From Microbacterium natoriense (GTDB taxonomy: Bacteria > Actinomycetota > Actinomycetes > Actinomycetales > Microbacteriaceae), in contig NZ_JAUSXV010000001.1 in assembly GCF_030816295.1 (NCBI RefSeq), positions 558,001-622,000 on the forward strand: a stretch of 64,000 nucleotides of DNA, written 5' to 3'. The position numbers and the translations under genes are program-made. The notes beneath the pieces are model-generated. The model was not told where the DNA came from. It saw only the letters and a list, made by a program, of their open reading frames with translations, and did not search any database. Positions 16,904 through 23,397 of this stretch are shown piece by piece. Positions within the stretch are counted from its first letter, which is position 1. Each line of letters opens with the position of its first letter.

Positions 16904-17980
16904 TCAGCGACGTCGGCGCACGCCCTCGGCCAGCTGAGCAAGCGCGATCTCCGTCGCATCCCACCCCATGCAGGCATCCGTCACGCTCTGACCGCGCACG
17001 AGTCCCGCGGGGCCGACCGAGACGTCGAGTTTCTGCGCTCCGGCGACGAGGTTGCTCTCGAGCATGATGCCCGCGATCGCGCGTCCGTCGCCGCCGATCT
17101 GCACGGCGAGCTCGGCGGCGACTTCCGACTGTCGAACGTGGTCCTTGCCGCTGTTGCCGTGGCTGGCGTCGACGACGAGTCGGTTGGTCAGCCCCGCAGC
17201 GGAGAGCCGCTCCGATGCCCGCTGCACGTGCTCGACGCTGTAGTTGGGACCGTCCGCGCCGCCGCGCAGGATCACCGAGGTGTCGGGGTTTCCCGTGGTG
17301 GTGACCAGGCTCGCCCGGCCGTCGGCGCCGATGCCCAGGAACGCCTGCGGAGCGGATGCCGCGGCTGCAGCATCCAGCGCCACCTGCAGGCCGCCGTCGG
17401 TGCCGTTCTTGAAACCGATCGGCATCGAGAGCCCGCTGGCGAGCTGGCGATGGATCTGACTCTCGGTCGTGCGTGCCCCGATCGCACCCCAGCTGACCAG
17501 GTCGGCGGTGTACTGCGGGCTGATCGGCTCGAGGAACTCGGTGGCGCACGGCATCCCGAGCGCCGTGACATCACGCAGGAACGCGCGCGCCATCCGGAGC
17601 CCCGCCTCGATGTCGTGACTGCCGTCGAGGTGCGGGTCGTTGATCAGGCCCTTCCAGCCGACCGTCGTGCGCGGCTTCTCGAAGTACGTGCGCATCACCA
17701 CGAGAAGGTCGTCGCGGTGCTTCTCGGCCTCGCGCGCCAGGCGGCCCGCGTACTCCAGGCCGGGCTCCGGGTCGTGGATCGAGCACGGCCCGACGACGAC
17801 GAGCAGTCGGTCGTCCTCACCCGACATGATGCGGCGCACCTCTTCGCGGGTGCGTGAGACGAGGGCCGCGCGCTCGTCTCCGACCGGCAGCTCGGCCGCG
17901 ATGTCCGCGGGCGAGGGGATCGTCGTGAAGCTGGCGACGTGCAGGTCGGCGGTGGCGTCGATGGTGGCGGCGTCGTGCAT
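16904..17980 (-). CDS. aroG: Phospho-2-dehydro-3-deoxyheptonate aldolase (DAHP synthase, class I)
   Basis: 358 residues. It condenses phosphoenolpyruvate and erythrose 4-phosphate, the first step of the shikimate pathway. Class I alpha motifs include VVGPCSIHDP, MRTYFEKPRTTVGWKGLINDP, ATEFLEPISPQYTADLVSWGAIGARTTESQ, PIGFKNGTDG, VVDASHGNSGKDH and IMLESNLVAG. The start ATG 17980 (MHDAATIDATADL) is chosen from family alignment. An in-frame TTG at 18136 would read through the leader region. Upstream lies a leader peptide rich in aromatic codons with alternative hairpins, so transcription is probably attenuated by charged Trp, Tyr or Phe tRNA. Confidence 0.95.
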   Translation of the reverse strand: MHDAATIDATADLHVASFTTIPSPADIAAELPVGDERAALVSRTREEVRRIMSGEDDRLLVVVGPCSIHDPEPGLEYAGRLAREAEKHRDDLLVVMRTYFEKPRTTVGWKGLINDPHLDGSHDIEAGLRMARAFLRDVTALGMPCATEFLEPISPQYTADLVSWGAIGARTTESQIHRQLASGLSMPIGFKNGTDGGLQVALDAAAAASAPQAFLGIGADGRASLVTTTGNPDTSVILRGGADGPNYSVEHVQRASERLSAAGLTNRLVVDASHGNSGKDHVRQSEVAAELAVQIGGDGRAIAGIMLESNLVAGAQKLDVSVGPAGLVRGQSVTDACMGWDATEIALAQLAEGVRRRR

Positions 17981-18038
17981 GGTCGGGTTCCTGTCCGGTG
18001 AAGGGCGGACCCCGGTGCAGAGCCCGCCGAAACGGCGA

Positions 18039-18118
18039 AAGCCAGAGCGAATGCTCTGGCTTGTCGGCTCTGAAGGTTCGGTACGCGTCAGTGTCGCGAC
18101 GGCCCCTCCAGAGCCGAC
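18039..18118 (-). promoter_or_regulatory. Candidate transcription attenuator of aroG
   Basis: Read on the minus strand: segment 1 (18118-18109, GTCGGCTCTG inside the leader peptide codons) pairs over 10 bases with segment 2 (18072-18063, CAGAGCCGAC). Further down, AAGCCAGAGC-ATTC-GCTCTGGCTT (18062-18039) makes a 10-bp hairpin followed by TTCGCCGTTTC, a terminator candidate. CAGAGC of segment 2 can compete with the terminator's own arm for GCTCTG. A ribosome stalled on the Trp/Tyr/Phe codons would cover segment 1 and free segment 2, the usual logic of leader-peptide attenuation. Confidence 0.68.
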
Positions 18119-18144
18119 TCGAAATACGCATACCAATTGGTCAT
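18088..18144 (-). CDS. Aromatic leader peptide upstream of aroG
   Basis: An 18-residue frame, MTNWYAYFESALEGPSRH, starting at ATG 18144 and ending in TGA 18088. Codons 4, 5, 7 and 8 encode Trp, Tyr, Tyr and Phe, the three end products of the pathway that aroG starts. The codons just after this cluster form one arm of a stem that competes with a terminator-like hairpin. Leader peptides with aromatic codons are known before DAHP synthase genes of other actinobacteria. It is too short for normal gene calling. Expression is inferred from codon content and RNA layout. Confidence 0.72.
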   Translation of the reverse strand: MTNWYAYFESALEGPSRH

Positions 18145-18172
18145 GGAGACGACCCTACCGCATTCCGAGACC

Positions 18173-18619
18173 TCAACCGGCTGCGAGTCGGACCCGCTCA
18201 GCGAGGAACGCCCGGTTCGCGTCGTCGAGTTCGAGGATCGCGTAGGCCACCGGCCAGAGCGTGCCCTCGTCGAGGTTCGCCGGCTGCTCGAACCCGAACG
18301 TGCCGTAACGCGTCTTGAACTTGCTGGCCGGCTGGAAGAAGCACAGCACCTTGCCGTCCTTGCCCCACGCGGGCATGCCGTAGTACGTGCGCGGGACGAG
18401 GTGCGGAGCGGCCTCGGTGACGAGGGCGTGCAGCCCCTCGCCGATCACGCGGTCGGAGTCCGACAGCTTCTCGAGGGCGGCCTTGAGATCAGCCTCACCC
18501 TCTGCCCGGACGTCCTCGGGAGACTTCTTCGCACGGGAGCGCGCGGTCTTCTTCTCGGCGGCGGCGGCCTTCATGGCGTCGCGTTCTTCGGCAGTGAAGT
18601 TCTTCTCGTTGTCAGCCAT
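18173..18619 (-). CDS. DUF1801 / YdhG-like domain protein
   Basis: 148 residues. A Lys/Ala-rich N-terminal helix region (1-45, AEEKKTARSRAKKSPEDV region) precedes a DUF1801-type domain with VPRTYYGMPAWGKDGKVLCFFQPASKFKTRYGTFGF, a pattern also found in YdhG/CyaY-like 'iron chaperone' annotations. The biochemical role of the family is uncertain. AGGAAAGG precedes ATG 18619 at good spacing. It stands alone between the aroG leader and a Nudix gene. Confidence 0.82.
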   Translation of the reverse strand: MADNEKNFTAEERDAMKAAAAEKKTARSRAKKSPEDVRAEGEADLKAALEKLSDSDRVIGEGLHALVTEAAPHLVPRTYYGMPAWGKDGKVLCFFQPASKFKTRYGTFGFEQPANLDEGTLWPVAYAILELDDANRAFLAERVRLAAG

Positions 18620-18746: not shown

Positions 18747-19184
18747 ATGGACATGCGCGTCGCGGCATATGCCGTCGTCACCGATGACGACGACCGCATC
18801 CTCCTCGCGCGATGGGTCGACGGACGACGAGTCGCCTGGACGATGCCGGGGGGCGGGCTGGAGCCGGGTGAGGCCCCCGAGGACGCTGTGCGCAGGGAGC
18901 TCCGCGAAGAGACGGGCTACACGGTCAAAGTGGGCGAGCTTCTCGGCATCCACTCCCGGGTGATCCCCGCCAGCCAGCGCGTGCAGAAATCCGATTCGCC
19001 CCTGCACACCCTGCGCATCGTCTACCGCGCGCAGGTCACCGGGGGCAAGCTGCGCTTCGAGCACGACGGTTCGACCGACATGGCCGAGTGGTTCACCCGC
19101 AAGTCAGTCGCGGAGCTGCAGCGGGTCAAGCTCGTCGACATCGCGCTGCGCATGGCGGGTCTCTACGCGCCGGCCGGCTCCTGA
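18747..19184 (+). CDS. Nudix hydrolase
   Basis: 145 residues. It carries the full Nudix box GGGLEPGEAPEDAVRRELRE followed by ETGY (about residues 35-58), which binds Mg2+ and hydrolyses nucleoside diphosphates linked to another moiety. The substrate cannot be told from the sequence. No Shine-Dalgarno is visible; TATTGT lies 10-15 bases before ATG 18747, suggesting leaderless expression. Its 3' end overlaps the convergent YbaK-family gene by 22 bases. Confidence 0.92.
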   Translation: MDMRVAAYAVVTDDDDRILLARWVDGRRVAWTMPGGGLEPGEAPEDAVRRELREETGYTVKVGELLGIHSRVIPASQRVQKSDSPLHTLRIVYRAQVTGGKLRFEHDGSTDMAEWFTRKSVAELQRVKLVDIALRMAGLYAPAGS

Positions 19185-19669
19185 TCGGGCCGAGGAGTTT
19201 CGGGCACCGAGATGTCGGCGACGGTCGCGCCGTAGGCGGCGATCAGATCATCGGCCTCGACGAACAGGCTGTACCCGTGCGCGCCCGCTCCCATCGCGAT
19301 GCGCTGACCGACGATCGTCTCATCGGCGTACACGGGCCAATCGGTGGTGCTGCCGATCGGCACGATCGTGCCGCGCTCGTAACCCGTGGCCGCCAGCGCG
19401 AGCTCCGGTTCAGGCAGACGCAGCTTGTTCACGCCGACGATGGCGCGCAGCTTCGGCCACGAGATCGACCGGCCCCCGGGCACGAGGGCGAACAGGTAGG
19501 TGTCGTCCGCACGCTTGACCACGAGGGTCTTCACGATGCCGGAGGGGTCGATGCCGAGGATCTCGGCCGCCTCGAACAGGCTCCGCGCGTTCGGCCGCTC
19601 GCGGATCTCGATCTCGAGACCACGGGCGGCCGCGGCATCCCGAACCCGGGAGTGCGACTCGTCTGTCAC
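19163..19669 (-). CDS. YbaK/EbsC-family aminoacyl-tRNA deacylase
   Basis: 168 residues from GTG 19669. The YbaK fold motifs include ARSLFEAAEILGIDPSGIVKTLVVK with the conserved Lys, YLFALVPGGRSISWPKLRAIVG, and GYERGTIVPIGSTTDWPVYAD with the GxxxG and Asp. Such enzymes clear mischarged aminoacyl-tRNA (Cys-tRNAPro and similar). The start overlaps the previous gene's stop as GTGA, so it is coupled to the upstream membrane-anchored protein. The longer open frame upstream is Arg-rich shadow sequence and was rejected. The tail overlaps the Nudix gene by 22 bases. Confidence 0.88.
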   Translation of the reverse strand: MTDESHSRVRDAAAARGLEIEIRERPNARSLFEAAEILGIDPSGIVKTLVVKRADDTYLFALVPGGRSISWPKLRAIVGVNKLRLPEPELALAATGYERGTIVPIGSTTDWPVYADETIVGQRIAMGAGAHGYSLFVEADDLIAAYGATVADISVPETPRPDQEPAGA

Positions 19670-20163
19670 GCGTCGGGTGCTGCGAGCGGGTCGTCTGCGA
19701 CCCAGAGCTCGTCGTCGGCGCGCAGTGCCTGCCAGGCGGCGTAGAGCACTCCGGCGGCGGCGGCCGCGCCGAGGATCAGGGCGACGATCGAGCCGAGGCC
19801 CGGGCCCTTCTTCTCGGGAACGACGACGCGCGCGCGAGGTGCGATGCCCTGACGCTTGGCGTTCGCGATGTCCCACGCGGTGAGCGCGGTGCCCACGACA
19901 CCGCCGACGATCGGGACGACCTTGTCGTCGACGACGTGCTTGCCGAAGCGCACGCCCTGATCGACGACCGGGGCCACCTTGCGGTTGTACGTGTCCTGCA
20001 CGACAGGCACGACCTGCTCCCGGTTGAAGTGGCCGAGCTGGCGGCCGGCTTCGCGGGCCACATCGGCGGCGTGGCCGACGAGCACCTGCTGGTTCTCCCA
20101 GAGCTGGGTCGCTTCTTCCTGAAGACGACGCAGTTCCTTCTTCCGCTTACGGCTGAGGCTCAC
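19666..20163 (-). CDS. Conserved hypothetical protein with C-terminal membrane helix
   Basis: 165 residues from GTG 20163, chosen because GGAGAG precedes it at 4-9 bases; an ATG at 20199 would add 12 residues. A basic N-terminus (SRKRKKELRRLQEEATQLWE), an amphipathic middle (HVVDDKVVPIVGGVVGTALTAWDIANAKRQG) and a membrane helix at about 125-148 (GSIVALILGAAAAAGVLYAAW) are followed by the acidic tail ADDELWVADDPLAAPDA. Similar proteins occur across Microbacteriaceae without known function. It is coupled to the YbaK-family gene. Confidence 0.78.
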   Translation of the reverse strand: MSLSRKRKKELRRLQEEATQLWENQQVLVGHAADVAREAGRQLGHFNREQVVPVVQDTYNRKVAPVVDQGVRFGKHVVDDKVVPIVGGVVGTALTAWDIANAKRQGIAPRARVVVPEKKGPGLGSIVALILGAAAAAGVLYAAWQALRADDELWVADDPLAAPDA

Positions 20164-23241: not shown

Positions 23242-23397
23242 ATGTACGCCGCACTCTGGCGCCTGCTGCCCGGTCCGTGGTGGCTGAAGCTGTTCATCCT
23301 GCTCGTTCTCGTGACCGCCGTGCTCTACGCGCTCTTCTGGTACGTCTTCCCCTGGGTGAGCCCGTTCATCACACCGGGTGAGGTCGACGTCGAATGA
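23242..23397 (+). CDS. Small membrane protein, 51 residues
   Basis: Reads MYAALWRLLPGPWWLKLFIL and continues through a single membrane helix (about 16-40), ending ITPGEVDVE. GAGAGGAAT provides a ribosome site before ATG 23242, and the stop overlaps the next gene's ATG (ATGA). It is therefore translationally coupled to the amidotransferase and sits between it and the sortase, an arrangement I recall from other actinobacteria. Function unknown. Its short length makes it easy to miss. Confidence 0.78.
   Translation: MYAALWRLLPGPWWLKLFILLVLVTAVLYALFWYVFPWVSPFITPGEVDVE

Follow-up and report, generated by a model that had tools for sequence, protein, structure and literature searches.

The class I 3-deoxy-D-arabino-heptulosonate 7-phosphate (DAHP) synthase gene aroG of Microbacterium natoriense, and a short leader gene that precedes it, were analysed within a 64,000-nucleotide (nt) stretch of the genome (contig NZ_JAUSXV010000001.1, positions 558,001 to 622,000; here the window, in whose coordinates positions are given). 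DAHP synthase controls the entry to the aromatic pathway, on which protein synthesis and many actinobacterial natural products draw. A preliminary description of the sequence had placed an 18-codon frame just 5' of a DAHP synthase gene, and both are confirmed on the minus strand: the gene product scores 467.2 bits against TIGR00034 (cut-off 173.2) and 479.1 bits against NF009395 and also matches PF00793, and the frame runs from an ATG at 18144-18142 to a TGA at 18090-18088, with 107 nt between its stop codon and the aroG start. The elements of the locus are as follows.

16904..17980, minus strand: aroG, class I DAHP synthase, 358 residues (TIGR00034, NF009395, PF00793)
18088..18144, minus strand: leader peptide gene, MTNWYAYFESALEGPSRH and stop codon (direct reading and conservation in relatives)
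18121..18135, minus strand: putative sensor codons W4 TGG, Y5 TAT, A6 GCG, Y7 TAT and F8 TTC (direct reading)
18152..18157, minus strand: -10-like box TAGGGT, 7 nt upstream of the leader ATG

Direct reading of the frame shows that, as had been stated, codons 4, 5, 7 and 8 are aromatic. Four aromatic residues within five codons occur in 3 of the 723 short frames of the window (ATG or GTG start, 10 to 30 codons) and in none from eight dinucleotide shuffles of it. The source genome has a single match each for the class I and class II DAHP synthase families, and a covariance model of the leader finds one match in it, 5' of the class I gene. The class II gene (PF01474) lies at G000:C1:3188849-3190144.

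The leader peptide is probably translated from a leaderless transcript, because the TAGGGT box ends 7 nt before the ATG. A TAnnnT box stands 6-8 nt 5' of the leader start in all 167 loci compared below, with a choice of start that was weighted towards the box, and in 161 of 176 under a weaker weighting of the same kind; a sigma-70 promoter scan around the leader found no promoter. Directly 5' of the leader, in the same orientation, lies the gene of a 148-residue protein (18173-18619, minus strand) with no Pfam or NCBIfam match at E 0.001, and read-through from it may also transcribe the leader.

Conservation and composition of the leader in relatives

Of 80 named loci, collected from named genomes with the aroG protein as the best 80 of 564, 76 have an aromatic leader ahead of the class I DAHP synthase gene. 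Within the same family, 23 of 299 genomes have a class I match, and the leader is present in 21 of these. Three of the 76 belong to Corynebacterium (L095, L104 and L105), with a leader of the RFYF type that reads RFYFG(G/E)(A/V)PG. No leader was seen in four named loci (L096, L099, L101 and L103, labelled Rokubacteriota, Gammaproteobacteria and Chloroflexi), nor a recognisable one in two family genomes, L008 and G063, the latter with two gene fragments. Typical leaders are MTNRWYAYFSLALEGPASN in Arthrobacter and relatives, MTTRWYAYFESALEGP in Microbacterium, MQNRWFTYAMSAPEGPAAV in Brachybacterium and MSRRWQAYFGLALEEPAA in Microlunatus. One contig labelled Sporosarcina beigongshangi (L083) carries an Arthrobacter-type aroG and leader; its label or assembly may be wrong.

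The covariance model (114 positions) matches at least 57 of 396 genomes of the order and at least 41 of 393 of the class, counts that are lower bounds under strict filters and that both include the window's own genome. Loci were examined for 89 of the 91 genomes with matches (G543 and G545 were left out, as were second, opposite-strand matches in G380, G546 and G572), and all 89 matches precede a gene with a DAHP synthase domain. In 78 this is a class I DAHP synthase (tblastn); in the other 11, of family f32, it is a DAHP synthase-chorismate mutase fusion with PF00793 and PF01817 matches (4/4 and 7/7, PF00793 falling under the curated cut-off in L158 and L189). These f32 loci (L157-L160, L186-L189, L191, L192 and L195) have readable leaders without Trp, for example MDRYFAFTEPAPEGRS, and a hairpin followed by four to six T.

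Sequence composition was compared in 167 loci derived from a set of 181. We removed L008, L024, L025, L096 and L099 (no leader), L101 and L103 (non-actinobacterial, with chance frames), the three Corynebacterium loci (other downstream architecture), and L002, L108, L119 and L136 (the window locus twice, and repeats of L003 and L007); the near-identical named record L026 represents the window locus. L038 was kept apart, since the program found no start although a leader is visible, and the 11 f32 loci stand outside the set, having no class I match. Since the 167 loci may include the same or near-identical genomes, 75 representatives were used where stated; L097 was removed after the 167-locus count because its aroG start could not be placed.

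Residues 2-13 of the leader contain Trp, Tyr and Phe together in 143 of the 167 loci, while the remainder have Tyr and Phe only (15), Trp and Tyr only (8) or Tyr only (1). The order of the aromatics differs by clade (RWYAYF, RWFTY, RWQFY, RWYWF, RWYWRF, YWRF and YRWF, as well as WYAYF and WYWRF), and the window leader is atypical in that no Arg precedes its Trp. Codon choice in the leaders is the reverse of that in the genes behind them: the 75 representatives use TAT 117 times and TAC twice, TTT 51 and TTC 17 times, whereas their aroG genes use TAT 2, TAC 350, TTT 9 and TTC 524 times. The 25 long frames of the window have 35 TAT and 218 TAC, and the Phe codon of the window leader is TTC, the common one. 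Because the order is permuted, the composition kept and the codons rare elsewhere, these sequences suggest that the signal is tRNA charging and decoding speed. The earlier proposal that one leader would read all three aromatic end products is supported by composition. Natural variants exist: the f35 loci L138-L147, L149, L150, L152 and L153 have Tyr and Phe but no Trp before the helix, mostly as RRYPYF, and in this one type Trp is missing from residues 2-13 in 14 of 14 loci and Arg stands in its place.

The 5' region is compact and structured, and could in principle be a T-box or a riboswitch for a metabolite, with the small frame next to it being incidental. However, no family except tRNA reaches the Rfam gathering score in the window, the leader region yields only an 11-bit match on the opposite strand at E up to 1, and the frame with its rare aromatic codons ranks among the best-conserved elements. 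We rejected this explanation and leave it only the slimmest chance.

A chain of alternative helices ahead of aroG

The leader RNA folds at -82 kcal/mol, compared with -58.2 +/- 4.1 in dinucleotide shuffles (z = -5.85), and none of 200 shuffles folds as well. The following segments, all on the minus strand, can be distinguished in it.

18126..18136: segment 0 (UUGGUAUGCGU), able to pair with segment 0'
18105..18118: segment 1 (GUCGGCUCUGGAGG), leader codons 9-14, in a 14-base-pair (bp) helix with segment 2
18078..18088: segment 0' (ACGCGUACCGA), beginning at the final base of the stop codon
18063..18076: segment 2 (CCUUCAGAGCCGAC), partner of segment 1 or, via CAGAGCC, of segment 5b
18039..18062: hairpin 3:4 (AAGCCAGAGC-AUUC-GCUCUGGCUU), 10 bp, in both folds, without a T tract
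18025..18037: small hairpin 4t:5a (CGCCG UUU CGGCG)
18018..18024: segment 5b (GGCUCUG), a copy of the segment 1 core that closes a three-way junction with segment 2
18004..18028: hairpin 5:6 (GGCGGGCUCUG / CGGGGUCCGCC), anti-sequestor
17984..18014: hairpin 6:7, sequestor, CGGGgUCC (18014-18007) with GGAaCCCG (17991-17984), one mismatch

These alternative helices form a conserved chain that ends over the aroG Shine-Dalgarno region (AGGAA, 17992-17988, whose GGA is paired within 6:7); the matching letters are clade-specific, and exchanges of partners between loci support each helix. The late leader codons had been said to pair downstream over 10 bases: the pairing is real, as helix 1:2, but it extends over 14 bp, including one G-U. 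Two-sided changes are seen at 7 of the 14 pairs of 1:2 and at 7 of the 10 pairs of 3:4. W/Y/F codons and covarying stems are both conserved across relatives, and a lack of conservation can no longer be held against the leader. In L138, an f35 locus, CGG stands in place of the Trp codon and the 0' partner reads CCGAC, not CCAAC.

Segments were found with an ungapped stem finder, as an RNAduplex search over-extended them through large loops. RNAalifold recovered only 1:2 on alignment A2, where hairpin 3:4 is misaligned; alignment A4 holds 41 of 44 loci, L032, L163 and L167 (insertions or a different 3' part) having been omitted before aligning. The swap scores of 1:2 and 3:4 are partly circular, because segments 1-4 were picked by best stem, whereas the windows for the remaining helices were set by position. 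A stricter scoring omits L017, L023 and L081 and leaves n=73 and 41 by two thresholds, or, because some windows are short, 69 and 38 for 5:6 and 68 and 38 for 6:7.

We evaluated the switch by folding 72 representatives (L017, L023, L081 and L100 omitted; for refolding barriers 73, with L026 added). When the RNA is cut just 5' of the Shine-Dalgarno sequence, 2:5b forms with a mean of 7.5 bp if segment 2 is free, and 5:6 reaches at least 4 bp in 65 of 72 loci with segment 2 masked vs 23 of 72 with it free. The choice between 2:5b and 5:6 therefore depends on whether segment 2 is available, and falls before transcription reaches the Shine-Dalgarno region; because masking segment 2 favours 5:6 in the cut RNA, formation of 1:2 would make that choice. 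In full RNA with segment 2 free, the lowest-energy fold contains both 2:5b and 6:7 in 8 of 10 examples (the exceptions are L166 and L178); the window RNA, when it ends at the start codon of aroG, favours 5:6.

The residues that follow the aromatics (ALEGP, APGG) are conserved as well, as might be expected of an arrest peptide, of which TnaC is an example, that senses a free aromatic amino acid or a chorismate-pathway metabolite in the ribosome tunnel. These residues are, however, encoded by segment 1, and RNA pairing explains them; the aromatics are permuted, and lack Trp altogether in the f35 type above, and the window chain is only 3-7 residues long when its aromatic codons are read. We considered this explanation very improbable and rejected it.

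Ribosome position, translation and the terminator question

In the 75 representatives, the first aromatic codon starts a median of 17 nt upstream of segment 1, and the last one 5 nt. For an assumed ribosome footprint reaching from -14 to +12 or +15 relative to the P site, every pair of 1:2 stays free when the ribosome stalls at the first aromatic codon, and 8-11 of 15 when it stalls at the last (medians); in the window, the free pairs number 14 of 14 for W4 and Y5, 10-13 for Y7 and 7-10 for F8. Segments 1 and 2 enclose a loop of median length 29 nt (quartiles 27-30), and the stop codon falls close to its centre, an arrangement that fits a terminating ribosome keeping the two segments apart. 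Stalling would thus permit 1:2, hence 5:6 and hence an open ribosome binding site, and opening upon a stall is the sign expected of a biosynthetic gene; under the classical sign, with segment 1 masked by the stall, 2:5b and 6:7 would form and close aroG during starvation.

We thus read the locus as a ribosome-mediated attenuator that probably acts on the translation of aroG, and give this a probability of about 55%. Translation would begin with the leaderless 18-codon gene. When Trp, Tyr or Phe runs short, we infer that the ribosome stalls at codons 4-8, upstream of segment 1, so that 1:2 pairs, segment 5 is left for segment 6, the Shine-Dalgarno sequence is uncovered and aroG is made. With ample aromatics the ribosome would reach the stop codon, near the middle of the loop of about 29 nt, and hinder 1:2; after termination, 0:0' could form and hold segments 1 and 2 apart without a ribosome. 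With 1:2 hindered, segment 2 would pair with 5b in a three-way junction around 3:4, and 6:7 would cover the Shine-Dalgarno sequence and keep aroG off.

Several results weigh against this reading, and the main weakness is that a switch is missing at equilibrium. In full-length RNA the Shine-Dalgarno sequence is unpaired to a mean of 0.447 with segment 2 free vs 0.433 with it masked (p 0.09), accessibility shifts in the predicted direction in 15 of 72 loci and in the opposite one in 24, and masking segment 2 drops 6:7 from 7.2 to 6.2 bp only (p 0.41). Likewise, for the window RNA with 30 nt of aroG and a ribosome at W4, Y5, Y7, F8 or the stop codon, 5:6 has 0.0 bp, 6:7 has 8.9 bp and accessibility is 0.43 in every case. 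Because equilibrium folding gives 6:7 either way, the open state would have to be kinetic, and the gap in refolding barriers is small: a median of 7.0 kcal/mol with segment 2 masked vs 5.5, higher in 39 and lower in 23 of 73 (p 0.028), the window values being 9.9 vs 7.0. The excess of native partners over the mean swap per locus is modest too, at 47 of 75 loci for 0:0', 52 of 75 for 2:5b, 57 of 75 for 4t:5a, 48 of 73 for 5:6 and 54 of 74 for 6:7, all five in the looser scoring. Helix 0:0' is the weakest (both test bases paired in 27 of 47 native vs 22 of 50 swapped cases), and it has no bases in common with 1:2, so that their mutual exclusion would be a matter of geometry. Furthermore, with the ribosome at the stop codon, a median of 11 pairs of 1:2 still lie outside its footprint. 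Finally, the T tracts of some relatives (Corynebacterium, f32) suggest that transcription is likely the level of control there.

This last point bears on classical transcription attenuation, in which 3:4 would be an intrinsic or weak terminator whose formation is prevented by stalling on the aromatic codons. The preliminary description had seen a terminator-like stem at 18039-18062; the stem exists (10 bp, loop AUUC) but is followed by TTTCGCC, without a T tract, and a scan of 17900-18300 finds no terminator. The longest T run is at most 3 in 70 of the 75 representatives. That the stem is the regulated terminator is not supported either: 3:4 persists whether segment 2 is free (9.61 bp) or masked (9.25 bp); by inspection, no other conserved segment able to break it, as an exchange partner for 3 or 4, was noticed. 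A pairing of segment 2 with segment 4 as antiterminator was rejected: it has 5-6 bp where present, by inspection, and is lost in Paeniglutamicibacter. Such attenuation would also leave the conserved helices 2:5b, 5:6 and 6:7 unexplained. On its side stand the strong conservation of 3:4 with compensatory changes, the same type of leader followed by five or six T after the corresponding hairpin in the three Corynebacterium loci and by T4-6 in the 11 f32 loci, and the AroR leader of C. glutamicum, by which transcription of aroF reportedly increases when Phe is limiting (PMC11802643). In all, we hold this explanation to be unlikely; a terminator mechanism is probably inapplicable in this lineage, and relatives may use transcription and the window lineage translation.

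Control at both levels is possible, at odds that we put well short of even and that overlap with those of translational attenuation rather than exclude it. Here a putative pause or leaky termination at 3:4 would synchronise RNA polymerase and ribosome, and the sequestor would set translation. The motif UUCG(C/U)C often follows 3:4 in the representatives, the hairpin occurs in either fold, and the segments are ordered in a way that suits a co-transcriptional choice.

The idea of an aromatic leader therefore stands, and extends more widely than was supposed; as a reading of it, translational control by several exclusive helices is preferred to a terminator. The mechanism first proposed is only partly supported, the conserved output being a Shine-Dalgarno helix that had gone unnoted. 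More tentatively, and at somewhat less than an even chance, we propose a widespread actinobacterial translational attenuator, in which the tRNA charging of three aromatics would be read in one leaderless leader by the reverse of the textbook scheme, with stalling that permits 1:2 and a terminating ribosome that prevents it, and relayed by the three-way junction and anti-sequestor to the aroG ribosome binding site; the relatives with T tracts would be transcriptional versions of the same sensor. If this is true, a single compact sensor that integrates Trp, Tyr and Phe supply at translation would add a regulatory layer without an Rfam match, and translational action would account for the missing T tract. 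The variants in which Trp has been lost, in one f35 type and in the readable leaders of the fusion genes, make the amino-acid specificity directly testable.

Elsewhere in the window, the other two short frames with four aromatics in five codons (starts at 23311 and 23320, plus strand) were rejected as leaders, both lying within a 51-codon frame at 23242-23397 (plus strand; LYALFWYVFPW) that resembles a membrane peptide rather than a leader. Its neighbours are what we take, from their sequence, to be a sortase-like and a glutamine amidotransferase-like gene. A protein with an aminoacyl-tRNA editing domain (PF04073) is encoded at 19166-19753 (minus strand), close to the aroG locus.

Comparison with known systems

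Among the literature matches listed, judged mostly by title and the start of the abstract, we found no report of this type of leader outside Corynebacterium, and searches with the leader peptide strings returned no paper. For the AroR leader of aroF, the original work is reportedly that of Neshat et al. (2014). AroR is given as a Phe-Tyr-Phe leader 5' of aroF in C. glutamicum (PMC11802643; PMC4046766); Phe limitation raises transcription and Tyr is without effect according to PMC11802643, while PMC7356990 describes control at the level of translation, exerted by Phe and Tyr. The window leader resembles AroR as a short aromatic leader of a class I DAHP synthase gene, and the three Corynebacterium loci are alike in position and partly in sequence. 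AroR differs in having no Trp, while the window lineage has Trp, Tyr and Phe, no T tract and a conserved Shine-Dalgarno sequestor. The Corynebacterium loci, on which rather than on the AroR sequence this likeness was judged, differ in the T5-6 after the hairpin and in their other downstream parts.

A table of eight leader peptides of S. lividans has none before a DAHP synthase (PMC8079986), and Seliverstov (2005) reports no conserved RNA structures for Phe/Tyr operons in Actinobacteria (PMC1262725). The same source describes the LEU element 5' of leuA in Actinobacteria, for which pairing between a run of leucine codons and the Shine-Dalgarno box is described, along with a proposed pseudoknot (PMC1262725). 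On this description the two share an actinobacterial leader peptide, a helix that involves the Shine-Dalgarno box and the lack of a clear terminator. The uORFC-13-1 motif of Acholeplasma aroF has a U run that encodes at least one Phe beside an apparent intrinsic terminator (PMC8632094). It is likewise a small frame 5' of a DAHP synthase gene but, as described there, in an unrelated lineage and with a U run and terminator.

In the enteric trp, pheA and his attenuators the sensor codons lie inside segment 1, a stall masks segment 1 and the output is a terminator. Codons for the end products, alternative helices and ribosome position as input are shared with the leader described here; in contrast, its codons lie upstream of segment 1 and its conserved output is a hairpin at the ribosome binding site. 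In translational attenuation of the ermC type the signal is an antibiotic, and the stalled ribosome rearranges hairpins and frees the ribosome binding site. The rearrangement of hairpins driven by a stall is alike, whereas here the signal would be tRNA charging for three amino acids.
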